Shown: positions 1,933 through 9,585 of the stretch, piece by piece
Numbering within the stretch: position 1 is the first letter of the stretch
Layout: each line of letters opens with the position of its first letter
Assembly: GCA_030616165.1 (NCBI GenBank)
Contig: JAUWXV010000087.1
Coordinates: 1-13,375, forward strand
Length of the DNA: 13,375 nt
Source of the DNA: a bacterium
GTDB lineage: Bacteria; SM23-31; JAUVVT01
Direction of reading: 5' to 3'
The notes under the pieces: generated by a model
Database searches by the model: none
What the model was told of the DNA's origin: nothing
Seen by the model: only the letters and a program-made list of their open reading frames with translations
Made by a program: the position numbers and the translations under genes

Positions 1933-2388
1933 GTTTAATAAATAAAGATAGAATAAATTTTTTGAATTCCCAACCTTCTTTATAAAAAAGCTGCTACTCC
2001 AATCACAGCAGAAAATAGTTCATAATCTTTATAATAAGACTATCTTTATGTAATAATTCTTTCAAACGAGTTTCAAATTTCCCCTAATTCACAACCTTTT
2101 ATATCGCATTCACAAGATTTATATTTTCTGCAAATGTTATCATTATATGTATTTTATTTTACAAGTATTTAAATTTTTCTTTAATTTTAGACTTGACAAC
2201 GTCTCTTTTATTAGTTAATATTTTTAATTGTTAGATAAAAATTGATTTCATTCAAAACTAATGTTTTTATTTCGAGACATAAAAAAGAAATTTCATTACG
2301 AATGGTTATGATGTGTTGATTTGTATTTGAAGAGATTGAAAAAAGGTTATTTAAATGGTTCGGATAAATTTTAAAGGAGAGGTTTAAA
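1933..2388. other. AT-rich divergent intergenic region
   Basis: About 450 bases between the divergently transcribed hydrolase and PurF-like genes, very rich in A and T, with no open frame of credible length on either strand. It holds the promoter at 2193-2221 and a 10-codon ORF at 2355-2387 (MVRINFKGEV) that overlaps the RBS of the PurF-like gene. That ORF has AAAGG 8 nt upstream and could be a leader peptide or chance. I see no RNA gene. Confidence 0.5.
2193..2221 (+). promoter_or_regulatory. Putative sigma-70-type promoter for the PurF-like gene
   Basis: A perfect TTGACA -35 box (2193-2198) is followed by 17 nt and TAATAT (2216-2221; four of six matches to TATAAT). It points toward the gene starting at 2389, leaving a leader of about 160 nt. 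The exact -35 and ideal spacing make it better than chance, but the surrounding DNA is AT-rich. Confidence 0.45.
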
Positions 2389-3702
2389 ATGAGTGGAATA
2401 TTTGGGATTTATTCAGAAAAAGAGTGTATTGAAGATTTGGTTTGGGGAACTTCTTATTTACAACATCGTGGACAAAAATTCTGTGGTTGGGCTGTTTCTT
2501 CTGATAATAGTATGGTTTATGAAACACATAGAGGAAAGTTAAGAGAAAAAATTAATTTTAATGAAGTAAAAGATGTTAAAGGTAAGATTGGCTTAGGTGC
2601 GGTTAGCTCAGGTGATAGACAACCTATAAGTGAATTATCAAAATATGGAGAATTTTTTTTAGTATATGATGGTAACGTTATGGGTGGTAGAGAATTAAAA
2701 GAAGATTTACTTAATGAAGGGCATTCTTTTACAGGTTATTATGATCCGACTTATATTCCCGATAATGTTTTAATTGGAAAAATATTAGCACTTAAAGGCC
2801 CTGTTAATGGTATTGTACAATTAAGTGAGAGGATAAAAGGAGATTATTCTTTAATTTTGTTAACAAGAAAAGGAATTATAGCTGCAAGAGGTTGGGGGAG
2901 AAAACCATTGATTCTTGGAAAAAGTGAGTATAGCTATGTTGTTTCTTCTGAATCATGTGTATTTCCGAATTTAGGCTTAGAAATTGAAAGAGATGTTAAA
3001 CCTGGCGAAATAGTCTCAATTAACGAGGAAGGTTTTAGTACTTTAAAACAATTAGACCTTAAACCAATAAAATATGGAACCTTTGAATGGGTTTATACAG
3101 CAAATTCATCTTCTGTTATAGATGGGGTTTCTGTGGAAGAATTTAGAAATAAAATTGGAGCTATACTTGCTGAGAGATACCCTGTTGATGCTGATTTAGT
3201 TTCAGAGATACCTAATTCTGGAATAGGTTATGCTATAGGTTATGCAAATAAATCGGGCATACCACATATTAGAATTTTTGTTAAATATGACTATGCTGAT
3301 AGAAGTTTTACGCTGGGAACAGAAAAGGAACGAGAGGAAGAGGCGAAGAGAAAATTAATTCCTATACCTTCTATAATAAAAGGAAAAAGAATTATTATTA
3401 CAGATGATTCTATAGTTAGAGGTACTCAGACAAAAGAAAGTCATGTCCCTCGATTAAAAAATTCTGGTGCTTTGGAAGTTCATGCGAGGATAGGATGCCC
3501 TCTATTGAGAGATAAATGTAGCTATGGTAAAACAACAAAGAAAAAAGAAGAGATTCTTTTTGTTAAGATGAAAATGAGTAATGATAATGATGTCAAGAAA
3601 TATTTGGGATTAGATAGTGTCGGTTTTGCTTTGCCAGAAGACCTTGCTATAGCCAGTGGCAAGTCTTTAGAAGAGTTATGTTTATCTTGTTGGGGGATTT
3701 AG
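2389..3702 (+). CDS. PurF-like amidophosphoribosyltransferase homologue with degenerate glutaminase domain
   Basis: Homologue of glutamine PRPP amidotransferase, which makes phosphoribosylamine in purine synthesis; 437 aa is slightly short for the family. The N-terminal Ntn-glutaminase fold spans about 1-230 and the phosphoribosyltransferase domain about 235-380. The PRTase half looks functional: PRPP loop IIITDDSIVRGTQ (335-347), flexible-loop Lys299/Tyr302/Arg305, and IPNSG at 274-278 (family PDSG). The four cysteines matching the B. subtilis-type 4Fe-4S ligands are present: Cys190 (SESCVF), Cys377 (DKCSYG), Cys431 and Cys434 (CLSCWG, near the very C-terminus). The glutaminase half is not intact. 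The protein starts Met-Ser-Gly-Ile-Phe, so the N-terminal Cys nucleophile is Ser; the Arg of GHVRYST becomes Ala71; the Asn-Gly oxyanion pair becomes Asp94-Gly95. HRGQ (26-29) remains. The start is fixed by AAAGGAGAGG (2373-2382). Codons are strongly AT-rich compared with neighbours, suggesting transfer. Ammonia-dependent activity or a new role is inference. Confidence 0.9.
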   Translation: MSGIFGIYSEKECIEDLVWGTSYLQHRGQKFCGWAVSSDNSMVYETHRGKLREKINFNEVKDVKGKIGLGAVSSGDRQPISELSKYGEFFLVYDGNVMGGRELKEDLLNEGHSFTGYYDPTYIPDNVLIGKILALKGPVNGIVQLSERIKGDYSLILLTRKGIIAARGWGRKPLILGKSEYSYVVSSESCVFPNLGLEIERDVKPGEIVSINEEGFSTLKQLDLKPIKYGTFEWVYTANSSSVIDGVSVEEFRNKIGAILAERYPVDADLVSEIPNSGIGYAIGYANKSGIPHIRIFVKYDYADRSFTLGTEKEREEEAKRKLIPIPSIIKGKRIIITDDSIVRGTQTKESHVPRLKNSGALEVHARIGCPLLRDKCSYGKTTKKKEEILFVKMKMSNDNDVKKYLGLDSVGFALPEDLAIASGKSLEELCLSCWGI

Positions 3703-8784: not shown

Positions 8785-9585
8785 CTATTCCGAATCCGGC
8801 AGTTCTCGGATCCAGATGTTGCGGAATCGAGCCGGATTGCGGTGATCCTGGAGACCAAATGGCATCTTGTCGGGATGTTCTCTGTATTCTGGAACTTTTT
8901 TAAAATCTGTAGGTCCCATGATTTCATAGTTGTCCTGCACAAGTACGCCGTTATGGAATACTGTGATTGTTGCTGGTTTAACAACCTTGCCGTCTTTGAA
9001 AATTGGGCGGTGGAAGACAATGTCGTAAGTCTGCCATACTCCTGGAGCACGTGAAACATTGACCAGCGGCGGACTCTGAGCATAAACTGCTGCTGCTGAG
9101 CCAGCTGGATAGGTTCTGTTGTTGTAAGAGTCAAGTACCTGAACTTCATAAAGATTCATCAGGAATACACCGCTATTGCCTCGACCCTGGCCTTCGCCAA
9201 CGACTTCAGTTGGTGTAGCCCACTCGACGTGTAACTGGCAAGAACCGAATGCTTGCTTTGTAGTAATTTGTCCCGTGCCCCTGACTGTCTCCATGTAATC
9301 ATTTTCGACCTTCCATTTGGGTGTGTTACCATTACGGTCTATCCATTGCGACAAGTCCTTGCCGTCGAAGAGGATAATCGCATCTGAGGGTGCTTTTCCT
9401 ACCCTGTCTGGCGTGCTCGATGTACTAGGCGCTACAACGGGTGGTTGTGGTTGGTTCTCATCATACATGGCATCAAGGTCGTAAGGCTTAGGAGTATAGG
9501 CAGTTTCGGTATCTATGGGACCGCAGCCAGTTATGGCTAATAGCGACATCACAGAAATTCCTATCAAGATTGATTTTACTTTCAT
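8785..9585 (-). CDS. DUF1080 / 3-keto-disaccharide hydrolase domain lipoprotein
   Basis: 266-residue outer-surface or periplasmic lipoprotein: signal peptide with lipobox LAITGC, modified Cys21, then a Pro/Ser/Thr-rich linker to about 65. The rest is a concanavalin-like DUF1080 domain (PF06439; 3-keto-disaccharide hydrolase/GH16-like fold): ILFDGKDLSQWIDR (71-84), GRGNSGVF (134-141), YEVQVLDSY (146-154), WQTYDIVFHRP (184-194), and the C-terminal LQDHRNPARFRNIWIREL (245-262). These are the family's conserved blocks in the right order, and the length is normal. Members are abundant in Planctomycetes, Poribacteria and similar organisms and are thought to act on oxidised saccharides. It stands alone, with AAGGAG just upstream of the ATG. 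Substrate is not deducible. Confidence 0.92.
   Translation of the reverse strand: MKVKSILIGISVMSLLAITGCGPIDTETAYTPKPYDLDAMYDENQPQPPVVAPSTSSTPDRVGKAPSDAIILFDGKDLSQWIDRNGNTPKWKVENDYMETVRGTGQITTKQAFGSCQLHVEWATPTEVVGEGQGRGNSGVFLMNLYEVQVLDSYNNRTYPAGSAAAVYAQSPPLVNVSRAPGVWQTYDIVFHRPIFKDGKVVKPATITVFHNGVLVQDNYEIMGPTDFKKVPEYREHPDKMPFGLQDHRNPARFRNIWIRELPDSE

Follow-up and report, generated by a model that had tools for sequence, protein, structure and literature searches.

Cys-less paralogues of amidophosphoribosyltransferase (PurF) were described in the Crenarchaeota in 2011 under the name PurF-prime, and an ammonia-dependent activity was proposed for them (PMC3261824). E. coli PurF in which Cys1 has been changed to Ala or Ser retains NH3-dependent activity (PMC3261824). 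The gene analysed here lies in a 13,375-nucleotide stretch of DNA (the window) from a genome of the SM23-31 phylum; its open reading frame starts with ATG. Judged from its sequence, the product is a PurF paralogue that is under selection and lacks a glutaminase active site. We assign it to a subfamily, A, whose features in the window are as follows.

2389–3702, forward strand: coding sequence of the Cys1-less PurF paralogue (subfamily A of PurF-prime), 437 amino acids; 248.5 bits to TIGR01134 (purF) against a cut-off of 350
2375–2382, forward strand: ribosome-binding site AGGAGAGG, six bases 5' of the ATG, read from the sequence
2392–2394, forward strand: codon 2, Ser where the catalytic Cys1 is expected
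2599–2616, forward strand: site of the deleted RYSTxG glutamine/channel loop, now AVSSGD (residues 71–76)
2668–2670, forward strand: Asp94, at the oxyanion Asn position in the alignment
3076–3078, forward strand: Gly230, at the position of the first Fe-S ligand (B. subtilis Cys236)
3280–3312, forward strand: flexible loop VKYDYADRSFT, with Lys299, Tyr302 and Arg305
3403–3429, forward strand: PRPP loop DDSIVRGTQ (Asp339–Gln347), with Gln for Thr at the final residue
3496–3519, forward strand: Cys370 to Cys377, the first two of the four invariant subfamily-A cysteines
3679–3690, forward strand: Cys431-x-x-Cys434, the remaining two invariant cysteines

The strong ribosome-binding site had already been remarked upon in the first-pass annotation of this DNA. 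A scan for promoters and terminators around the gene gave signals no more frequent than those in shuffled sequences.

Residue comparison of the two domains

Fourteen subfamily-A and ten subfamily-B proteins were aligned with 64 canonical PurFs. Cys1 is present in all 64 canonical proteins and in none of the 14 A proteins, where the first residue is Ser (8), Ala (3), Thr (2) or Gly (1). Given this variation at residue 1, a catalytic role for Ser1 is unlikely. Every member of both subfamilies (14/14 and 10/10) has a deletion of the Arg-Tyr-(Ser)-Thr-x-Gly loop, and the oxyanion Asn, Asn102 of the B. subtilis enzyme, is conserved in 64/64 canonical PurFs and replaced by Asp in 14/14 A proteins. 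The first-pass annotation had correctly identified Ser, the residue after Met, in place of the catalytic N-terminal Cys, and Asp94 as the counterpart of the oxyanion Asn. It had, however, taken Ala71 for the replaced Arg of a GHVRYST motif; the alignment puts Ala71 at His70, and the Arg loop itself is missing.

In the phosphoribosyltransferase (PRTase) domain, the position table shows that the DDSIVRGT PRPP loop and the flexible-loop residues Lys299, Tyr302 and Arg305 are retained in the window protein, as had been claimed. All four Fe-S cysteines had also been thought intact; three are indeed present (Cys377, Cys431 and Cys434), but the position of the first ligand, B. subtilis Cys236, is occupied by Gly in all 14 A proteins. 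The cysteines invariant in subfamily A number exactly four (370, 377, 431 and 434), so that Cys370, which is found in 18/64 canonical PurFs too, may fill the place of the missing ligand. Nor is the loss confined to one half of the protein, as was first supposed: in the PRTase domain Thr353 is Gln in 14/14 A proteins, Asp282 is Asn in 13/14, and YGID387 has become YGK plus a Thr, Ser or Ala.

These changes could be read as altered or lost catalysis. The protein might then be a catalytically silent sensor of PRPP or nucleotide, or a pseudo-subunit regulating another protein. The substitutions in the PPi loop (D282N), at the end of the PRPP loop (T353Q) and in the YGID motif lend this some weight, as does the adjacency of subfamily-B genes to canonical purF in a gut contig and in genome G274 (see below), which would fit a PurF partner. 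Such a role is nevertheless improbable, since the PRPP loop, the Lys and Arg of the flexible loop and the Asp-Asp pair are all retained, and in the A-bearing archaeal genomes no canonical PurF was found with which the protein could pair.

Phylogeny, fold and selection

In the phylogenetic tree subfamily A is monophyletic (support 99/97), and A and B, without the divergent L087 protein, form one clade (100/99). Subfamily A was found in three of the six SM23-31-phylum genomes examined, the window genome included (G004 has two copies), in one Glassbacteria MAG and, among archaea, in ten genomes of Pacearchaeota, Woesearchaeota or Nanoarchaeota type. Subfamily B is found in DPANN archaea and in other bacteria, among them Bacteroides finegoldii, Parabacteroides distasonis and Peptoclostridium acidaminophilum. 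Two further Ser-1 types, L087 and C, branch between A/B and canonical PurF; as the support for this placement is weak, a single loss of Cys1 is, on the sequences, likely but not proven. The Ser-1 clade envisaged at first was found in a broader form: a Cys1-less clade exists, with Ser, Ala, Thr or Gly rather than specifically Ser at residue 1. The type C proteins (L101 in G387 and L102 in G304) are very divergent Ser-1 relatives of PurF, which share the pacearchaeal slot described below and lack the YG motif after the Cys matching B. subtilis Cys382.

Horizontal transfer probably accounts for the presence of subfamily A in both Pacearchaeota-like archaea and a few bacterial phyla. A phage origin was considered and rejected: a viral scan detected nothing, and the phage and plasmid matches examined were canonical PurF or subfamily B.

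Comparison of the window gene with its 89%-identical homologue in G001, a second genus of the same family, gave a dN/dS of ~0.06 over 294 codons, with values of 0.051 for the N-terminal domain and 0.055 for the PRTase domain. For A, B and canonical PurF the ratio of N-domain to PRTase-domain identity is 0.86, 0.82 and 0.88, respectively; the values for A and canonical PurF imply that the dead N-terminal domain is not decaying. An AF2 model of the window protein built from 13 homologues (pLDDT 84.8, pTM 0.83) matches the PurF structure 1ao0 with a Z-score of 37.3 (414 residues, rmsd 3.8) and 6lbp with a Z-score of 38.7, and thus predicts a two-domain PurF fold along the whole chain.

A decaying pseudogene or a sequencing error would account for the absence of Cys1, but the data refute this: there are 14 subfamily members with open frames, a dN/dS of 0.06 and invariant columns throughout. 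Point mutation, misassembly and relaxed selection are likewise ruled out by the 14-member Cys1-less subfamily and the dN/dS. Cys1 in all close homologues, or relaxed selection, would have told against the first-pass interpretation; Cys1 occurs in 0/14 members, and the dN/dS indicates purifying selection. Its core, a selected loss of glutaminase function with retention of the PRPP site, agrees with the residue pattern, the tree and the dN/dS.

Gene neighbourhoods and purine genes

Reading of the neighbourhoods revealed no purine genes beside the A gene in the window, as had first been noted, or at loci L031–L042, L111 and L112. In Pacearchaeota the A gene comes after orc1, DP1 and DP2 (the large subunit of polD), and a TctA-type transporter gene faces it. 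Depending on lineage, this orc1-DP1-DP2-PurF-prime-TctA slot is occupied by A, B-like, L087-type or C proteins, suggesting that a single old gene has been inherited there. In three archaea without a PurF match (L137, L145 and L148) DP2 and TctA are adjacent and the gap is empty, from which we conclude that the gene is accessory. Occupancy of this slot by all four kinds of protein might suggest a replication-linked factor of Pacearchaeota. That is highly improbable, however, since the gene is missing from those three sampled archaea, bacterial copies lie away from replication genes, and the wider region is generally syntenic, so that adjacency to the polymerase need not imply a role in replication. 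The bacterial A neighbourhoods do not repeat and therefore offer no clue to a pathway. A DUF1080 (3-keto-disaccharide hydrolase-like) lipoprotein gene occurs near the PurF paralogue in the window genome, G000 (window 8785–9585, reverse strand), and in G001 (L034:1582–2379, forward strand), at differing distance and orientation.

Subfamily B is purine-linked in several genomes, whereas A is purine-independent. The gene order is purC-purB-purA-purH-B-purD in G282 and purB-B in G045, and in G274 canonical purF is divergent to B-purD. The gut contig MT836108.1 (L167:5113–8882) has the order purC-B-canonical purF, with purH further on and a 28-base overlap between B and canonical purF; this record, filed as 'Bacteriophage sp.', is probably bacterial chromosomal DNA. 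The B genes of G011 and G050 have no purine neighbours. In two Bacteroidales records and Peptoclostridium (L164, L165 and L166) B lies directly 5' of pepT, an order common to Bacteroidota and Bacillota; in the Bacteroidales records pepT is followed by gcvT. Housekeeping genes (eno; rplU and rpmA) are carried by L165 and L166, both 'plasmid' records.

Profile searches of the ten A-bearing archaeal genomes, all of them MAGs, identified no PurD, PurM or PurL above the curated cut-offs, and nine of the ten gave no PurM or PurL match at all. The exception, G371, has full-length PurM-like and partial PurL-like matches on one contig. It is unlikely that so many MAGs are independently incomplete in the same pathway. 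In three of the ten, which have no true PurD, there is a PurD-like ATP-grasp protein (L077:5595–6899; L078:3065–4423 in G068; G409) that differs in its N-terminal region, matches GARS_A and GARS_C and scores 105–122 bits to purD; it is a possible partner of A.

The A-bearing bacteria carry purine genes, and a canonical Cys1 PurF is present in G001, G004 and G060. A normal PurF beside the paralogue, as the first-pass annotation had considered, is thus found in three of four A-bearing bacteria; none was found in the archaea or in a search of the contigs of the window's own genome. In the latter, contig C184 breaks off within a purC-purE fusion gene that lies immediately 5' of purD; in G001 the counterpart of this fusion gene, 86% identical, comes directly after canonical purF. 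We do not accept the paralogue as its host's sole PurF, as the break in C184 falls where G001 has purF.

These genome contents bear on whether A is an ammonia-dependent PRA synthase, catalysing the PurF reaction with free NH3 for purine synthesis or another PRA-consuming step. The activity of the E. coli Cys1 mutants, the same proposal for crenarchaeal PurF-prime (PMC3261824) and the presence of the sister subfamily B in purine operons speak for such an enzyme. Most of the archaeal hosts, with no PurD above cut-off and no PurM or PurL match, would however make PRA without a known consumer, the bacterial hosts already have PurF, and the RYST loop is deleted. We regard this role as possible but rather unlikely; the earlier suggestion of free ammonia for purine synthesis is weakened accordingly in both groups of hosts.

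Proposed function and relation to known systems

The explanation we favour, at roughly even odds (about 0.5), is that subfamily A is a PRPP transferase that works independently of glutamine and outside standard purine synthesis. On its sequence, the N-terminal Ntn domain is unable to hydrolyse glutamine, having lost Cys1, the oxyanion Asn and the Arg loop; it would be retained as a structural or altered-ligand domain. The C-terminal PRTase domain, to go by its kept residues, would bind Mg-PRPP and transfer the phosphoribosyl group to a nucleophile that reaches the site directly, not to glutamine-derived ammonia. This acceptor would be free ammonia or, more likely, another small molecule, and the genome contents suggest that the product stays out of de novo purine synthesis.

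Another acceptor is ranked above ammonia because nothing known would consume PRA in most of the archaea that carry A, and the A-bearing bacteria make it already; our confidence in this ranking is moderate, not strong. Of three options raised at first, use of another substrate is the better supported, by inference; for a partner supplying ammonia, no candidate was found among the neighbours of A. More tentatively, A may serve an undescribed pathway, joining PRPP to a non-ammonia acceptor, in a few bacteria and in archaea that lack de novo purine synthesis; its Ntn domain would then be re-purposed and its cysteine cluster rearranged (CX6C ... CX2C).

The gene carries an annotation for the committed step of purine synthesis where the rest of the pathway was not found, and automatic annotation from it would falsely imply purine synthesis in DPANN archaea. 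Since the Cys-less clade reaches gut Bacteroides and Parabacteroides, removing the gene there would allow the function of subfamily B to be tested. In the open-access literature we found no paper on the bacterial/DPANN clade, the A/B split or the A cysteine set, and nothing relevant about the Bacteroides gene or the PurF of Pacearchaeota. What is new is how far the clade extends among bacteria and DPANN archaea, together with the A/B split and the altered cysteine set of A.

Compared with PurF (TIGR01134; B. subtilis 1ao0/1gph, E. coli 1ecf), subfamily A has the same full-length two-domain fold, PRPP loop and flexible-loop Lys/Tyr/Arg, and differs in the loss of Cys1 and the RYST loop and in the Asn-to-Asp, T353Q and D282N substitutions. 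Relative to the Fe-S-type enzymes (B. subtilis cysteines 236, 382, 437 and 440) it has Gly at 236 and keeps the other three. The window protein falls below the TIGR01134 cut-off, whereas the canonical PurF of G001 scores 437.7 bits. Subfamily B ('TDYHSHLGT'), annotated as amidophosphoribosyltransferase (WP_007756110.1 from B. finegoldii; WP_025436666.1 from P. acidaminophilum), is the sister clade and resembles A in having Ser or Gly instead of Cys at residue 1, a deleted RYST loop and T353Q; unlike A, it keeps Cys236, has lost Asp127 and in several genomes lies beside purine genes or pepT(-gcvT). Crenarchaeal PurF-prime, as described (PMC3261824), is likewise a PurF paralogue without Cys1, but its genes cluster with purF and purine genes (PMC3261824), which those of A do not. 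Cys-less PurF paralogues were therefore already known from Crenarchaeota, and subfamily A is a further variant.
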